Shown here one piece after another: positions 7,756 through 33,732 of a stretch of DNA of 35,812 bases (within the stretch, counting starts at the first letter, position 1; every line of letters begins with the position of its first letter). The translations under genes and the position numbers were made by a program. This DNA comes from a virus: positions 1-35,812 of IMG/VR virus record IMGVR_UViG_3300010885_023803; one strand, written 5' to 3'. Under the pieces are notes generated by a model, which saw only the letters and a program-made list of their open reading frames with translations, did not search any database and was not told the DNA's origin.

Positions 7756-8042
7756 ACGACTTGTTGTATAATACGTTTGCATGGATAAAAGATGATTGGC
7801 GTAGTAATAAGTTTCGTTTTGCTATTGAGTTGTTGGCTTGGGCTATTAGTATTGGCTGCTCAATCACCATGGCACTCACAGTCCCAAATCCTCCTCTTCT
7901 TGCTCTTTATCCTGTGTGGATTAGTGGTTGTGCCCTCTATGCTTGGGCTAGTTATACTCGGAAATCATTTGGGATGCTTGCTAACTATATACTGTTAACC
8001 ACTATTGACACAGTTGGACTAGTGAGGATGTTACTTAATTGA
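7752..8042 (+). CDS. Small membrane protein with about three transmembrane segments
   Basis: This 96-residue protein starts at a TTG that overlaps the upstream stop; no in-frame ATG lies near its N-terminus. An amphipathic start with the motif [15 protein letters not shown] is followed by hydrophobic stretches at roughly residues 26-44, 49-67 and 74-93. It should sit in the inner membrane. It lies between the DNA-binding protein and the ribosome recycling factor, with a second TTGA overlap at its end. The N-terminal pattern is familiar from small phage membrane proteins, but no function can be given. Confidence 0.6.
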
Positions 8043-8593
8043 ATCAAATCACATCGCAATGCGAATCTAAAATGTCTAAGAGCATTGACTCATTTAAAAC
8101 AGCACTTAGTAAGATTCGAACAGGTAGGGCTAGTACTAGTCTATTAGAGAATTTGTTAGTGGACTACTACGGTAGCCTCACGCTTATTAGTCAGGTAGCT
8201 AGTTTGACATTGGCCGATGCAAGAACTATTTCAGTTGTTCCATGGGAAAAAACTATGTTAGGTCCAGTGGAAAAAGCAATTAGAGAATCCAATCTAGGTC
8301 TTAATCCACTGAACAAAGGTACCGTTATTATGGTCCCGATGCCCTTACTGTCAGAAGAACGGCGAAATGAAATGGTAAAGATTGTTAAATCCGACGGCGA
8401 AGATGCTAAAATAGTTATTCGCAATCACAGACGAGACGCCAACGATCAATTAAAGAAATTAGTAAAAGCTAAAGAACTTACAGAAGATCAGGAAAAACAA
8501 GGGCAGGCTCATATCCAAAAACTAACAGATCATTTTATCGCAGAGATTGATCAATTAGTTGACAGTAAAGAAAAAGAAGTACTTAAAGTTTAA
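8039..8593 (+). CDS. frr: Ribosome recycling factor (RRF), phage-encoded
   Basis: RRF, with EF-G and IF3, splits the post-termination ribosome so that subunits can restart. This 184-residue protein matches the bacterial length (185 in E. coli) and aligns through the whole chain. [20 protein letters not shown] is the start of the three-helix domain I, and [16 protein letters not shown] lies in domain [22 protein letters not shown] and [14 protein letters not shown], with the conserved Arg cluster, follow in order. Nothing looks truncated. It starts at TTG, overlapping the membrane protein's stop by four bases, and lies eight bases before the DNA polymerase. It should modify translation during infection. 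Confidence 0.95.
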
Positions 8594-19536: not shown

Positions 19537-20283
19537 ATGACCGATAAAAAAGAAACAGCACTAGACGTTATGTACGGCGACAGCGGCTATCAAGAAGGCA
19601 CAGCACATAACTATTTGGGGTTTGTAATGAAACGTAATGGTAAAAGATTCTGGGCTGGAGATAACATCAGTGAATACCTTGATGACAAAATGAAAGAACA
19701 GCTAATCAATGAAACAACTCTAGCATTTGAAAAAGTGTTAGACTGCTTATTGATCGATCGTGAGACAGATCCTAATAGCAAAGGCACAGCAAGACGCCTT
19801 GCTAAAATGTATTTTAACGAAGTAATGGCGGGCCGATATGAGTCTCCCCCAGATTGTACAGCATTTCCAAATAATAGTGAGGATAGATATGAAGGCATGT
19901 TGGTTGTTCGTAGTGAGTTGCGTAGTATGTGTAGTCATCATCACCAACCCGTTACTGGTGTTGCTTATATTGGTATTATTGCCGCTGAGAAACTTATTGG
20001 CTTATCAAAGTACACACGTATCGCGCAGTGGTGCGCTAGACGAGGTACTCTCCAGGAGGAACTTGCTAATGATATTGCTAGGGAGATTCAAAAGTTCACA
20101 GAGGCAAAAGATGTAGGTGTTTACATACAGGCCACTCATGGATGTTGCGAAAATCGAGGCATTATGGCACATTCTAGTCTGACACAGACTACAGTGCTCA
20201 AGGGTGCTTTTAAAGACGATCCCGGCACTAAGAAAGAGTTTTTCGATAATATTAAACTACAACAAGATTTTGCTCCCCGATAA
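19537..20283 (+). CDS. folE: GTP cyclohydrolase I (FolE)
   Basis: FolE converts GTP to 7,8-dihydroneopterin triphosphate, the first step towards folate and 7-deazaguanine. This 248-residue protein has the zinc site in MCSHHHQPVTG (C132, H135) with a second Cys in THGCCENRG (C203/C204). KLIGLSKYTRIAQWCARR and TLQEELANDIA are the family's active-site blocks. The usual CEHH is CSHH here, and the N-terminus has an extra loop, so the enzyme is divergent but looks complete. With QueD and QueE it most likely feeds DNA modification by DpdA, since no folate genes are present. Confidence 0.92.
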   Translation: MTDKKETALDVMYGDSGYQEGTAHNYLGFVMKRNGKRFWAGDNISEYLDDKMKEQLINETTLAFEKVLDCLLIDRETDPNSKGTARRLAKMYFNEVMAGRYESPPDCTAFPNNSEDRYEGMLVVRSELRSMCSHHHQPVTGVAYIGIIAAEKLIGLSKYTRIAQWCARRGTLQEELANDIAREIQKFTEAKDVGVYIQATHGCCENRGIMAHSSLTQTTVLKGAFKDDPGTKKEFFDNIKLQQDFAPR

Positions 20284-25221: not shown

Positions 25222-25776
25222 ATGGCAAAATCCTCAACCGCTGATTTAATCAGACACTTAGAAAACAACCTGCCTTACATAGGCCCAGTCAGTTACAAAT
25301 ATACTAGCACTAAAGAGTATCATGATGCTTTTCCCTGCGCCTATCGTCAGTGGCGAGCAGATAGTCATTGTAACTTAATCCACGGATACAGCTTCTCGAT
25401 GAAGTTCTACTTTGGTACCGACGAATTGGATGTTCGTAACTGGGCAGCCGACTATGGCGGTCTTAAAGAACTTAAAAAGATCTTAGAAGATCAATTTGAC
25501 CACACGCTTATCGTAGCCGCGGATGATCCAGACATGGAGACATTCAAGTTGCTACAAGAAAAGAATATGGCCAAGATTGTTGTACTACCTAAGTTAGGCT
25601 GTGAAGGCCTAAGTGACATGCTCTACAAGTATGTTAATGGTGTATACATTCCAGAAATGTGGGGCGAAGGCGAAGCCAAACGACTATGGTGCTATCGCGT
25701 AGAAGTTCGAGAGACACAGAGCAACATGGCGTTCCGTGAAGGTCATCGTGAATGGAATGAAGATTTATTTGCATAA
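25222..25776 (+). CDS. queD: QueD-like 6-carboxytetrahydropterin synthase
   Basis: QueD converts dihydroneopterin triphosphate to 6-carboxytetrahydropterin. The 184-residue protein has the catalytic Cys and His block (CAYRQWRADSHCNLIHGYSF), then ELDVRNWAADYGGLKELK, the catalytic region DQFDHTLIVA and LGCEGLSDMLYKYV, with RVEVRETQSNMA at the end. Two usual zinc histidines read as Tyr (AHRL to AYRQ, HGH to HGY). I believe this pattern marks a known QueD subgroup and is not damage. AAAGGAG precedes ATG 25222. It works between FolE and QueE. Confidence 0.88.
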   Translation: MAKSSTADLIRHLENNLPYIGPVSYKYTSTKEYHDAFPCAYRQWRADSHCNLIHGYSFSMKFYFGTDELDVRNWAADYGGLKELKKILEDQFDHTLIVAADDPDMETFKLLQEKNMAKIVVLPKLGCEGLSDMLYKYVNGVYIPEMWGEGEAKRLWCYRVEVRETQSNMAFREGHREWNEDLFA

Positions 25777-25931: not shown

Positions 25932-26213
25932 ATGGAATCAAAACAAGAAGAAATTCTAAATATCTTACAAGAAGAATGTGCAGAAGTAATACAAATGGTT
26001 TCTAAATGCCGCCGATTTGGATTAGATCAGCAACATTTAAAAGCAGACAAACCTAACCGAGATAAGCTCACTGAAGAAATTGGTGACGTTTTAGCCATGA
26101 TTAATTTATGTATAGAACATAACATTGTTAATCAAGATCAAGTAATGACTGCACAACAAAATAAATTTAAAAAATTAAAACAATGGTCAAATATATTTGA
26201 GATAGAAAAATGA
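25932..26213 (+). CDS. mazG: MazG-like nucleotide pyrophosphohydrolase
   Basis: MazG-fold enzymes cleave (d)NTPs to NMPs and PPi. This 93-residue, single-domain protein has the metal-binding helix pair [15 protein letters not shown] and [14 protein letters not shown], the family's ExxE and ExxD signatures. Phage MazG proteins are thought to clear host or unwanted nucleotides. The gene overlaps guaC by ATGA and follows queD, so it may help keep plain dGTP or intermediates low while modified DNA is made. That last point is inference. Confidence 0.8.
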
Positions 26214-27304
26214 GAATAGAAGAAGATATTAAATTAGACTTTAAAGATGTACTGATTCGACCGAAGCGTAGTACGTTATCAAGTCGTAAAGAAGTTGATC
26301 TAAATCGCACTTACAAATTTAAGCATAGTAGCAAGGAATGGTTTGGTGTGCCTATTATGGCATCAAACATGGACGGCGTGGGGACTATGGAAATGGCTGA
26401 AGCCTTGTATCGACATCGAATGTTTACTTGTTTGGTCAAACCTTACACCGAAGATCAATTTGGCGATACTATAGGGCGAATTGGTGGCAATTACCTAGCA
26501 GTCAGCACTGGTACTAGCACCAATGATTTCCAACGACTAAGTAGAATCATTAATAGCTATCCAGAAATACATTTTATCTGTATTGATGTAGCCAATGGTT
26601 ACAGTGAAGTCTTCGGTGATTATGTAGAAGAAGTAAGAAACGCATTTCCACACTGTACTATTATTGCCGGCAATGTTGTAACAGCAGACATGACACAGGA
26701 GTTAATTTTACGTGGCGCAGATATTGTTAAAGTGGGCATTGGCCCTGGTAGCGTTTGTACTACTCGTATCCAAACTGGTGTGGGCTACCCACAGCTTAGT
26801 GCTATTATTGAATGTGCCGATGCCGCTCACGGTCTTGGCGCTCATATTATTGCTGATGGTGGATGTGTTTGCCCTGGTGATGTTGCTAAGGCTTTCGGGG
26901 CTGGTGCGGACTTTGTAATGCTGGGCGGTATTTTGGCCGGGCATGATGAAGGTGGTGGGGAAATTATTCAAAAAATCACAGAGACTACAGAATTAGGTGC
27001 AATGGATCAAGGTGAACATTACCCTAGTAAAAAACTCAAAGTAGAAAAATATGTACAATTCTATGGTATGAGTAGTGATACGGCTATGGAAAAACACAGT
27101 GGCGGTGTTGCAGAGTATCGCAGCAGTGAAGGCCGCACAGTTGAAATTCCGTACAAAGGGCCAGTTAAAGACACAGTGTTAGACATGCTAGGTGGGTTAC
27201 GTAGTACTTGTACTTACGTTGGTGCATCAACTCTTAAACAATTACCCAAATGTACTACATTTATTCGAGTCAATCGACAAATCAATGATATTTTTTTAAA
27301 GTAA
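26210..27304 (+). CDS. guaC: GMP reductase
   Basis: GuaC reduces GMP to IMP with NADPH. The 364-residue TIM-barrel protein has the catalytic loop [12 protein letters not shown] with C183, the IMP-site segment [17 protein letters not shown], and the GuaC-type flap [18 protein letters not shown]. The ending, [13 protein letters not shown] with [14 protein letters not shown], separates it from IMP dehydrogenase, and there is no CBS domain. A phage GMP reductase would pull guanine nucleotides into the IMP/AMP pool. It sits between mazG and queE, each overlapping or a few bases apart. Confidence 0.92.
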
Positions 27305-27310
27305 ATTATA

Positions 27311-28201
27311 ATGTCTAAAATTAAAGTAAGTGAAATTTTTTATAGTGCTCAAGGCGAAGGTCGTTTTATAGGTGTGCCCAGTGTTTTCTTAAGAACGTTT
27401 GGTTGTAATTTTACCTGTTCGGGCTTTGGATGCGGCCCAGGGGTTAAAAGTACAGAAGCAGACGATGTTGCAAAAAACGTTCATTTGTACAAAGACTTCA
27501 ACAGTTTACCATTAGTAAATACTGGCTGTGACAGTTATGCCAGCTGGCATCCGGCATTTAAAGAACTAAGCCCGACCATTAATACAAATGACTTAGTGGA
27601 TCGTATGTTGAAACTTACACCCAATAATAAATGGGTGCAAGACAACGGCAATGACGTGCATCTTGTTATTACTGGCGGGGAACCCTTATTAGGTTGGCAA
27701 CGTGCATATGAAGAATTGTTGAGTAATTCTGCTATGGCTGATCTGCAAAATTTAACTTTTGAAACAAATGGTACTCAGGAACTACAACCTGCATTTAGGC
27801 ACTACTTACTTAATTGGACATTAAACTCTAAATTAAATTCTAAAGGTGAGCGTAGAACTTATAATAATCTCACCTTTAGTGTCAGTGCTAAATTAAGTGC
27901 CAGTGGAGAACGGTGGGAAGATGCTATCCGTCCCGAGATCGTTGCCAGCTATCAAAAAATTGGGCATACATATCTTAAATTTGTTGTTGAAACCGAAGAA
28001 CACTTTGCTGAAGTGGATCGAGCAGTAAAAGAATTCAGAGCAGGCGGATTTACTGGTGCTGTATACGTAATGCCGCAGGGAGGTGTTGTTACTCCCTACG
28101 AAAAAAATCGAGTTCGTGTGGCTGATTTTGCAGTCAGTAAAGGCTACTATTACAGTCCAAGACTACACGTTGACCTTTGGGGCAATGGGTGGGGGAAATA
28201 A
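27311..28201 (+). CDS. queE: QueE-like 7-carboxy-7-deazaguanine synthase (radical SAM)
   Basis: QueE uses SAM and a [4Fe-4S] cluster to turn 6-carboxytetrahydropterin into 7-carboxy-7-deazaguanine (CDG). The 296-residue protein opens with SEIFYSAQGEGRFIGVPSVF and has FGCNFTC (C32, C36). The usual third Cys two residues later is absent; candidates are C41 or C73 (NTGCDSYASWHP), as in the loop-extended phage-type enzymes I recall. LVITGGEPLLGWQ is the SAM-binding GGEP motif. It ends the FolE-QueD-QueE set, and QueC is not visible in this window. Confidence 0.87.
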   Translation: MSKIKVSEIFYSAQGEGRFIGVPSVFLRTFGCNFTCSGFGCGPGVKSTEADDVAKNVHLYKDFNSLPLVNTGCDSYASWHPAFKELSPTINTNDLVDRMLKLTPNNKWVQDNGNDVHLVITGGEPLLGWQRAYEELLSNSAMADLQNLTFETNGTQELQPAFRHYLLNWTLNSKLNSKGERRTYNNLTFSVSAKLSASGERWEDAIRPEIVASYQKIGHTYLKFVVETEEHFAEVDRAVKEFRAGGFTGAVYVMPQGGVVTPYEKNRVRVADFAVSKGYYYSPRLHVDLWGNGWGK

Positions 28202-29792: not shown

Positions 29793-30764
29793 ATGCGATA
29801 TCTAATTGTTGACACAGCTAATACATTTTTTCGTGCAAGACACAGTGCCCATCGTCAAAGCGACACATGGGATAAACTAGGTTTTGCTATTCACGTAACT
29901 CTTGCCAGTGTAAACAAAGCATGGCGAGATCAAAAAGCAGACCATGTAGTATTCTGTCTCGAAGGTCGTAGCTGGCGCAAGGATTTTTATGAACCCTACA
30001 AGAAAAACCGTGCAGTTGCCCGGGCGGCGCTTACAGAAAAAGAAGCAGAAGAAGACAAATTGTTCTGGGAAGCTTTTGACGATCTTAAAACGTTCTTATC
30101 CGAACGCACCAATTGTACTGTTCTCCAGCACAAAGAGTTGGAAGCAGATGACTTGGTGGCAGGATGGATCCAAGCACACCCTCAGGATCACCACACCATC
30201 GTAAGCAGTGACACTGATTTTCATCAGTTGCTGGCTGACAATGTCAATCAATACAATGGTATCGCAGATGAATTACACACATTAGAAGGAATTCTTGACA
30301 AGAAAGGCAAACCTGTTATTGACAAGAAAACGAAACTGCCTAAATTGATCCCCGACCCCGAATGGATCTTGTTTGAGAAGTGTATGCGAGGAGATCCCAC
30401 AGACAATGTCTTTAGTGCATACCCCGGAGTTCGTAAAACTAAATTACAAGAAGCTTTCACCGATTTAAAAAACAAAGGATTCGCGTGGAATAATCTAATG
30501 TTAACGAAATGGGTTGACCATAATAAACAAGAGCACAAGGTACTAGACGATTATAATAGAAATCGTGTACTGGTCGATTTAACAGCTCAACCCGACAACA
30601 TTAAAGTTAAGATTGCAGAAACTATTGCACAAGGAAGTATAACACTTAGCAGACCAATGGTGGGTGCTCAATTTTTAAAATTTTGCGGCAAGTATGAACT
30701 TAACAAATTAAGCGAAAATCCTTCTGCTATTAGTTCAGTGCTGTCAGCGAGTTATCCAGTATGA
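29793..30764 (+). CDS. 5'-3' exonuclease / RNase H, FEN superfamily (T4 Rnh-like)
   Basis: T4 RNase H removes Okazaki RNA primers and flaps. The 323-residue protein has the acidic residues of the FEN/5'-exonuclease fold in order: IVDTANTFFRARH (D7), VFCLEGRSWRKDFYEPYKKN, ELEADDLVAGW, IVSSDTDFHQLL and RGDPTDNVFSAYPGVR, which starts the H3TH DNA-binding part. The length is near T4 Rnh (305). It would act with the polymerase and clamp at 8.6-13.0 kb. It has its own strong promoter and overlaps the next gene by ATGA. Confidence 0.9.
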   Translation: MRYLIVDTANTFFRARHSAHRQSDTWDKLGFAIHVTLASVNKAWRDQKADHVVFCLEGRSWRKDFYEPYKKNRAVARAALTEKEAEEDKLFWEAFDDLKTFLSERTNCTVLQHKELEADDLVAGWIQAHPQDHHTIVSSDTDFHQLLADNVNQYNGIADELHTLEGILDKKGKPVIDKKTKLPKLIPDPEWILFEKCMRGDPTDNVFSAYPGVRKTKLQEAFTDLKNKGFAWNNLMLTKWVDHNKQEHKVLDDYNRNRVLVDLTAQPDNIKVKIAETIAQGSITLSRPMVGAQFLKFCGKYELNKLSENPSAISSVLSASYPV

Positions 30765-31000
30765 ATATACGAATTCAAAAACTTGCCGAGCAGGCCACTG
30801 ATGTTATTGAGATTGTTAATCCGGACACAGGAGTTACTCACTCTCGAGAATTTTTTGACAAAGAAAAGTTTGCCAAATTAATTATAATCGAATGTGCTGG
30901 ATTATTTCCTAACGTTTATGTGTCACTCGAAACTGAGTGGGGACACACTCCTGTTATTGCAGAAGATTATATAAAAAATTATTTTGGAGTTGAAGAATGA
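30761..31000 (+). CDS. Small conserved phage protein
   Basis: The 79-residue protein has an acidic, probably alpha/beta make-up, with the block EKFAKLIIIECAGLF in the middle. Similar small proteins occur in T4-like marine phages, without a known role. It is coupled to the exonuclease gene and to the tiny membrane peptide downstream by four-base overlaps. Confidence 0.55.
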   Translation: MNIRIQKLAEQATDVIEIVNPDTGVTHSREFFDKEKFAKLIIIECAGLFPNVYVSLETEWGHTPVIAEDYIKNYFGVEE

Positions 31001-31086
31001 AGTTCATTCATAAGGTTATGATTACCCATGCTGTTATTATGATAGTATGGGCTTGTTATATTATAAATTTAGTCTTAGAGAATTGA
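30997..31086 (+). CDS. 29-residue membrane peptide
   Basis: ATG 30997 overlaps the upstream stop by ATGA, and the frame runs to TGA at 31084-31086, three bases before the bilin reductase. The peptide starts MKFIHKVMITH and continues with one hydrophobic helix (AVIMIVWACYIINLVL). The tight fit between two genes and the clear helix argue for a real small protein, although chance cannot be excluded at this length. Confidence 0.5.
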   Translation: MKFIHKVMITHAVIMIVWACYIINLVLEN

Positions 31087-31089
31087 AAA

Positions 31090-31764
31090 ATGACCACTAA
31101 TATTTGGCAACGAATCTCAAAAGTAGCAGAATTCTTTGAATCACGTTTCAAAGAAACAGGCACACCCATTGTAGATGTGGCTGAATCCTACGACTGGTAT
31201 AATCGGCTATACACCAGCTCTACATATCGCAGAGCGCACGTTGAGATTGTAGACAAAACTGCCAGTCACAAGATTCTTGTGTTACATTGCACAGTATTTC
31301 CGCACTACAATGACCCTAGTCCAATTTGGGGATTTGATGCAGTGTGTGGTCCAAGCAAGATCACAGGAGCATTTCATGATTTCAGCAACGGTGGAGATCC
31401 CAACCATTTTATGATGAAACATTTTGCCGAAACCGTAAAAGATGTAACTTGGAATAAGCCCAGAGTATTACCACAGTGGGCATCCGAAATTTTTAGTTCA
31501 AACATTGTGGCTGCAGGTAATGTTAGCGACGAAGCTGAATTAGACAACTTGTGTCAGCTAGCCGAATCAAACTTGGATTACTATCTAAACAATGTGGGCA
31601 AAACTGCACAGTCTGAAATTGATTATTGGCCAATTCAAAGTCGGTACAATGCCAATAACAAATTGAATCCACATGTGGCTCGTAGCATGATTTCCATGGG
31701 CGTAGAAGAAGCTGTAATTAAAAAGTTTATCGACGAAGTATTATATCCAGAACATAGACTATGA
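31090..31764 (+). CDS. pcyX: Ferredoxin-dependent bilin reductase (PcyX-like)
   Basis: These enzymes reduce biliverdin to phycobilins with electrons from ferredoxin. The 224-residue protein has the family's core: ILVLHCTVFPHYN with H66, SPIWGFDAVCGPSKITGAFH with D83 (17 residues on, the spacing I expect for the H88/D105 pair of PcyA), LPQWASEIFSSN, and NNKLNPHVARSMISMGVEEA near the C-terminus. PcyX, from marine viral contigs, is the closest match I recall and makes phycoerythrobilin. PebS is the other phage type. No heme oxygenase to make biliverdin is in the window, so it must come from elsewhere in the phage or the host. Confidence 0.85.
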   Translation: MTTNIWQRISKVAEFFESRFKETGTPIVDVAESYDWYNRLYTSSTYRRAHVEIVDKTASHKILVLHCTVFPHYNDPSPIWGFDAVCGPSKITGAFHDFSNGGDPNHFMMKHFAETVKDVTWNKPRVLPQWASEIFSSNIVAAGNVSDEAELDNLCQLAESNLDYYLNNVGKTAQSEIDYWPIQSRYNANNKLNPHVARSMISMGVEEAVIKKFIDEVLYPEHRL

Positions 31765-31771
31765 GTCAAGA

Positions 31772-31897
31772 ATGAAACTATACAAACACAGCAACGGTAA
31801 GACACATTTCTTTCCTGAAACAATTCCAAAAGGATGGGAAGTTATGTTGAACCCAAATACATTTAATGTTATATGGCGGCGAATTCGGAGCAGATAA
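31772..31897 (+). CDS. 41-residue basic protein
   Basis: The frame from ATG 31772 to TAA 31895-31897 fills the gap between the bilin reductase and the next gene almost exactly. The product starts MKLYKHSNGKTHFFPETIPK and ends in a basic tail (IWRRIRSR). The spacing and codon use resemble the neighbours. No function is known. Confidence 0.5.
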   Translation: MKLYKHSNGKTHFFPETIPKGWEVMLNPNTFNVIWRRIRSR

Positions 31898-32904: not shown

Positions 32905-33265
32905 AACTCTTCTTTTTATACTTGTTTTGTTTCAGATTAAACACTGGTACATTGATTTTGTAAATCAAAACGATGAAGAAGTAAAACACAAAGGCATTTA
33001 TCTTGACTGGCTAGGACTAAAGCACAGTCTTAAACATGGTATTGGAACCTTTGCTTGCCTTTGGACTGTAACTGGATGGACTAACATTGAGTTTGCTTTT
33101 TTTATTGGTGTATTAGATTTTATGTTACACTACCACATCGACTGGGCTAAAATGAATTACGGTAATAGAGATATTACTACACCCCAATTTTGGAATCACT
33201 TGGGCATGGATCAAATGGCACACCAGCTTTGCTATATATTATTTGCAGGACTTACATTATTATGA
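32897..33265 (+). CDS. DUF3307-like membrane protein
   Basis: With ATG 32897 (AAAGGA upstream) the protein has 122 residues. It has a hydrophobic N-terminal helix running into the DUF3307-type motif QIKHWYIDFVNQ, then LKHSLKHGIGTFACLW, FAFFIGVLDFMLHYHIDWAK and a final helix. The repeated His and Asp on helices suggest a membrane metal site. DUF3307 proteins are common in phages and bacteria and have no firm function. Confidence 0.65.
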   Translation: MIETLLFILVLFQIKHWYIDFVNQNDEEVKHKGIYLDWLGLKHSLKHGIGTFACLWTVTGWTNIEFAFFIGVLDFMLHYHIDWAKMNYGNRDITTPQFWNHLGMDQMAHQLCYILFAGLTLL

Positions 33266-33732
33266 ATGAACTAATTGCCAAACCTATTTTAAAAAACAAA
33301 TATTGGATCGTAGAACAACAAGGATTTAAGGTAGCAACTATTCAAGCCATCGACGACGGTGGCTTTGTTTATGTGCAAGAAAACAAAAGAGAAAAATTTT
33401 CTACTATTAAATTACTCAGTAAAGCTTATAATTTAATATTTGATCATGGCGTAAAAAAAGAAAAAGCACTTCTCGAAAATCATAATGTATATGATTACCC
33501 TGTGATCAATAAACCATGGAATATACTTTGGGACGTCAAACACCAATTTCCAGTGTATACTAAAACCAGTAAAAGCAAAAGCTTTTATTGTGCAGGGTAT
33601 TATATCATCAAATTTAACAATGGGTGGGTTAAGAGTCATTGCCCAAAATTTATTACTCTGAACAGATACCTATTCCAAGGTCCGTTTAAGACTAAAGAAG
33701 AAATGAACGAAGCGCAAAAGGCTGCAAAATGA
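33262..33732 (+). CDS. Conserved phage protein of unknown function
   Basis: The start is ATG 33262 (MNELIAKPIL), giving 156 residues. The conserved-looking block is PVYTKTSKSKSFYCAGYYII followed by WVKSHCPKFITLNRYLFQGPF. I recall proteins of this pattern in T4-like marine phages, without a function. It is basic and probably all-beta. It has short overlaps with both neighbours. Confidence 0.55.
   Translation: MNELIAKPILKNKYWIVEQQGFKVATIQAIDDGGFVYVQENKREKFSTIKLLSKAYNLIFDHGVKKEKALLENHNVYDYPVINKPWNILWDVKHQFPVYTKTSKSKSFYCAGYYIIKFNNGWVKSHCPKFITLNRYLFQGPFKTKEEMNEAQKAAK

Follow-up and report, generated by a model that had tools for sequence, protein, structure and literature searches.

The stretch of viral DNA analyzed here, 35,812 nucleotides of IMG/VR record IMGVR_UViG_3300010885_023803 (the window), carries a gene that probably codes for a functional PcyA-type bilin reductase giving phycocyanobilin, gained by single-gene capture from a cassette in which heme oxygenase (HO) precedes a ferredoxin-dependent bilin reductase (FDBR). 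We assign a probability of roughly 0.7 to this reading as a whole.

The ORF at 31090-31764 on the plus strand has an ATG start and codes for a protein of 224 aa. It matches the Pfam family Fe_bilin_red (PF05996) with an E value of 1.7e-12 and 48 bits against a curated cut-off of 31, as well as PHROG 7278, annotated as ferredoxin oxidoreductase (1.7e-17). An AlphaFold2 model built from 30 relatives has a mean pLDDT of 92.3, and its best structural match is PcyA 2d1e (VIA Z 25.4, 2.4 Å over 215 residues). The dN/dS values of 0.035-0.056 obtained against 12 near-identical cassette copies indicate strong purifying selection on the gene. Judged by profile, predicted fold and placement in a tree, this is a real member of the ferredoxin-dependent bilin reductases, as the preliminary description had proposed.

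The gene also proves to be a single-gene insert, which that description could not see. By blastn against near-identical loci, homology to the window is confined to 31087-31769. Six close relatives (L119-L124), which are 86-93% identical to the window on both sides (about 90% at the nucleotide level), lack a segment of 775 bp at 31002-31776, a length that includes one copy of a flanking repeat. In these relatives the site is empty, with window position 31004 joining 31768 with a 12-nt overlap by blastn. The 9-bp direct repeat, AAGAATGAA, stands on the plus strand at the insert edge (30993-31001) and again at 31768-31776, and L119-L124 have a single equivalent stretch. The left joint of the captured ORF lies at its start codon. 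At the other end, plus-strand positions 31761-31769 hold a scar, ATGAGTCAA, identical to the opening three codons of a tail-completion-like gene, the one found after the reductase in HO-FDBR cassettes. The 11-nt context of this scar, CTATGAGTCAA, is identical in L008, L009, L010, L011 and L012. In the window it is followed directly by GAATGAAAC, and at the same place in L008, L009, L010 and L012 it is followed by ATG, the start of the next gene, which codes for the tail-completion-like protein. The scar thus points to a cassette locus as the source of the captured ORF, with HO not taken.

The insert lies in a variable slot whose left border is a 5'-3' exonuclease-like gene (29793-30764, plus strand; 5_3_exonuc_N 1.7e-19; PHROG 107). 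Backbone relatives were found via this gene and a downstream gene at 33190-33732, and among 132 relatives the distance between the flanking genes ranges from -12 to 7223 bp, with various other ORFs inside. No FDBR was detected by tblastn in the loci from both flanking-gene searches, and the reductase occupies this site in one record only. Directly before the reductase, and inside the insert, a small hydrophobic ORF of 29 aa was read from the sequence (30997-31086, plus strand); neither this ORF nor the stretch of ~90 bp before the reductase has a convincing match in any locus examined. Directly after the insert comes another small ORF read from the sequence (MKLYKHSNGK..., 31772-31897, plus strand), the equivalent of which adjoins ORF 30761-31000 in the empty-site relatives. 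We propose that the source was a related large phage with an HO-FDBR cassette, from which the reductase ORF alone was captured. HO would have stayed behind, the opening codons of the donor's following gene would have been retained as a scar, and the ORF would have entered the variable slot between the exonuclease-like gene and the small conserved ORFs. Biliverdin would then be supplied by the heme oxygenase of the host, or by an HO elsewhere in the phage genome.

The HO context of related loci bears directly on this proposal. The Pfam Heme_oxygenase profile has no match in the 35.8-kb window, and no HO, whether hidden or frameshifted, was found when the region upstream of the reductase was searched; the upstream ORF is 79 aa long and matches no family. 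The earlier remark that no heme oxygenase lies nearby is thus true of the window, but it does not describe the system. Using a profile built from cassette HOs, HO was found directly upstream of the reductase in 91 of the 94 related phage loci that have upstream sequence (five contigs being counted twice), mostly with an overlap that ranges from a few nucleotides to some tens; in one of the exceptions HO lies 586 nt away, and in the other two there is none in the vicinity. HO also comes first in all of the 92-95% identical copies with upstream DNA, and the Pfam profile has a match in 13 of 15 records tested and is lacking only in the window and in a contig that breaks off at the gene. The window reductase therefore lacks the upstream HO that defines the phage HO-FDBR cassette, and comparison of the loci suggests that HO is missing as a result of having been left behind when the reductase was captured. 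At one related locus (L203, 4427-5005) an ORF between HO and the reductase resembles, by eye, an alpha/beta hydrolase.

The window represents roughly one tenth of the genome of a jumbo-type phage, and an HO may therefore lie elsewhere in it. The DNA polymerase of the window has its closest counterparts in two jumbo myoviruses of >460 kb, Sinorhizobium phage Phosso (51%) and Agrobacterium phage Atu_ph07 (47%), which makes the earlier label of a T4-like genome loosely right. The RRF gene claimed earlier is present at 8039-8593, and the DNA modification noted earlier is matched by GTP cyclohydrolase I, QueD-like and QueE-like genes (19537-20283, 25222-25776 and 27311-28201, respectively) of a 7-deazaguanine pathway, which probably serves this purpose. 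The window also contains an IMP dehydrogenase/GMP reductase-like gene (26210-27304; PF00478, 1e-68) and a ferritin-like protein (1657-2091; PF00210, 6.5e-19) that is 85% identical in the 338-kb contig G024 and is a possible link to iron.

Most window ORFs have a match in G024, and the structural region of G024 is in turn largely colinear with that of G001, a 157-kb contig that bears a cassette, their proteins being roughly 30-85% identical. The window and the cassette phages are thus members of a single broad group, of which they represent different genome parts. An earlier view of the window and G001 as unrelated phages, with almost only the reductase matched, was dropped because G024 links both, and with it the claim of transfer between unrelated phages. 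These relationships give some credence to a tentative alternative in which the phage has its own HO. The window reductase would then be an additional copy that has relocated, and the HO-FDBR cassette would lie in the structural half of the genome, outside the contig. The G001 cassette, which sits in that structural half, is outside the region covered by the window, and the contig G065 has a lone reductase plus an HO-FDBR pair 26 kb away. However, the site of the G001 cassette is empty in G024, and neither HO nor FDBR was found in 30 window-backbone records, most of them fragments, although they include records of 338, 374 and 157 kb. Six long records hold an HO-FDBR cassette together with the orthologue of the window exonuclease, and in these the reductase genes are at one locus each. 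Single-gene capture remains our preferred account of the absence of HO from the window.

The residues of the active site bear on the predicted product. The preliminary description noted a conserved H66/D83 pair, and these residues (codons at 31285-31287 and 31336-31338, plus strand) do align with His88 and Asp105 of PcyA, with conservation in 114 of 116 aligned rows, a count that includes partial rows with gaps. It overlooked residue 52 (codon 31243-31245, plus strand), the position at which PcyA-type and PcyX-type enzymes differ. When aligned to 2d1e and 5owg, this residue is a Glu equivalent to PcyA Glu76 and to PcyX Asp55, so that the window enzyme has the full PcyA triad of Glu76/His88/Asp105 as E52/H66/D83; the PcyA numbering was confirmed by the PDB mutants E76Q (3i95) and D105N (3f0l). 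Glu76 is absent from PcyX (PMC10151467), where Asp55 is the catalytic residue particular to PcyX, and the enzyme of freshwater phage CB_2, which does not have Asp55, was shown to make phycocyanobilin (PMC11480375). Glu52 together with this precedent leads us to predict that the window enzyme converts biliverdin to phycocyanobilin, a blue pigment, rather than to the pink pigment first suggested. The triad would take biliverdin IXalpha and four electrons from reduced host ferredoxin, and reduce the D-ring vinyl first and the A ring second. Glu52 is a single residue, and the product could differ, given that residues 187 and 190 are both Asn in the window and Cys and Gln in PcyA, and that PcyA Asp220 is replaced by Pro194.

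The label of a PcyX-like enzyme given earlier implies a true PcyX that forms phycoerythrobilin from biliverdin via 15,16-dihydrobiliverdin. We regard this as unlikely, although PcyX_EBK42635 (5owg) is the best solved match by sequence (E 5e-39) and the closest fold by rmsd (VIA Z 22.3, 1.5 Å over 173 residues), and the window and PcyX have in common a C-terminal block NPH that PcyA does not have. Against it, PcyX from both 5owg and Mosig has Asp at the place occupied by Glu in the window and in almost every member of its clade, and the CB_2 enzyme argues for the other product. The window clade is also separate from that of PcyX. In a tree of 89 proteins the window falls in a Glu-type phage clade of 37 rows (support 98/89), and the characterized PcyX enzymes (5owg, Mosig) fall in an Asp-type phage clade of 46 rows (support 98/94). 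The window protein is therefore PcyX-like only in the broad sense of being a member of the AX clade; it stands among the bilin reductases, but in a sister clade to the characterized PcyX and with the catalytic Glu of PcyA. Two Glu-bearing rows (L271, L274) are placed by the Asp clade without firm support, and two members of the Glu clade have Gln (L206, 5004-5672) or His (L239, 4998-5666) at the catalytic Glu position.

Like the window reductase, PcyX of EBK42635 (5owg) and of pelagiphage Mosig is a phage enzyme with equivalents of His66 and Asp83 and the same fold, and in Mosig it adjoins HO. It shares 35-39% identity with the window protein, has Asp for Glu52 and gives phycoerythrobilin. Cyanobacterial and cyanophage PcyA share the Glu/His/Asp triad and the fold (Z 25), although identity is only ~21-23% over the aligned part and PcyA Asp220 and the Cys/Gln of the C-terminal block are not kept. 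PebS of cyanophage P-SSM2 has a phage bilin reductase fold (Z 18) but 17% identity, and it has Asn at the PcyA His88 place, where the window keeps His66. A further close system is the CB_2 'PcyA*', an AX-clade reductase without Asp55 from a large freshwater phage, which differs in that CB_2 also encodes HO and alaS in a broken cassette (PMC11480375). Among 21 records alaS is found in only three (G011, G012, G061).

Copies that are 92-95% identical to the window reductase occur in 13 contigs of IMG/VR, with a further fragment that is 96% identical. For the wider family, at least 574 stretches encode a relative. Whether the window copy nests within the cassette copies was not settled by FDBR trees, nor by a tree built from the DNA of the near-identical copies. 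A scan of cellular genome contigs gave six loci only, mostly short metagenome bins, and no cellular origin could therefore be named.

Several related contigs carry more than one reductase. A tandem HO-FDBR-FDBR arrangement occurs in three records, at the loci L019 (5321-6666, identical in L020 and L222) and L221 (4322-5663), in which the first reductase is Asp-type and the second Glu-type, both open and with synonymous change far above non-synonymous change; L019 and L020 are loci of G011 and G012, two of the contigs with alaS. In the 118-kb G065 the lone reductase near 53 kb is Asp-type (L302, 5024-5719), and the HO near 79 kb is paired with a Glu-type one (L303, 3634-4302). A lone Glu-type reductase that is 68% identical to that of the window is present in G045 (L304, 15382-16056), and no HO was found around it in this 30-kb contig. 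It is conceivable, though doubtful, that large lake phages combine Asp-type and Glu-type reductases in one infection, in tandem or scattered, with the window gene being half of such a set and the rest in the unseen part of the genome. If this were true, the Asp-type enzyme would give phycoerythrobilin or dihydrobiliverdin and the Glu-type enzyme phycocyanobilin, in a two-pigment or two-step pathway. The lake habitat is taken from taxon ids 3300020151 and 3300020159, which are tied to a freshwater bacterioplankton study, and from literature of the CB_2 type.

The empty site could also reflect ancestral presence of the gene in the ancestor of the window and L119-L124, with deletion in the latter via the 9-bp repeats. 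Direct repeats do flank the segment, and the synonymous distance of the FDBR to sampled cassette copies (0.63-1.0) exceeds that between the window and L119 exonucleases (0.35). However, an unsampled donor accounts for this difference, and more distant relatives also lack the gene, so that one gain is simpler and ancestral loss is improbable. An assembly artefact that joined reductase reads of a co-occurring cassette phage into the contig is very improbable even though the junction is seen in one record only, since the window copy is 11-14% divergent at the DNA level from each of the cassette copies, its GC content is 0.41 as against 0.375 for the window and 0.43-0.46 for three donors, overlapping stop and start codons are kept at the left and right joints, and the ~90 bp between the left joint and the gene occur in no other locus.

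In regards to the electron donor and the use of the pigment, neither a Fer2 ferredoxin nor a phytochrome PHY domain was found in 17 records (the window and 16 related ones), and pmoC, a marker for methanotroph hosts, had no match in 21 records. Electrons presumably come from host ferredoxin. The host of CB_2 is cited as a methanotroph, and phytochrome, globin and iron roles have been discussed (PMC11480375).

With its joint sequences, the window offers a clear example of a phage metabolic gene copied alone from an operon into another phage. Should reductase genes be maintained in phages that have no HO, biliverdin must come from the host, a constraint that would narrow the possible roles of the pigment. 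More broadly, the phage reductases called PcyX-like comprise two clades with different catalytic residues, so best hits should not be used to assign a product. For the large Glu-type clade the predicted product is phycocyanobilin, a chromophore of phytochromes.
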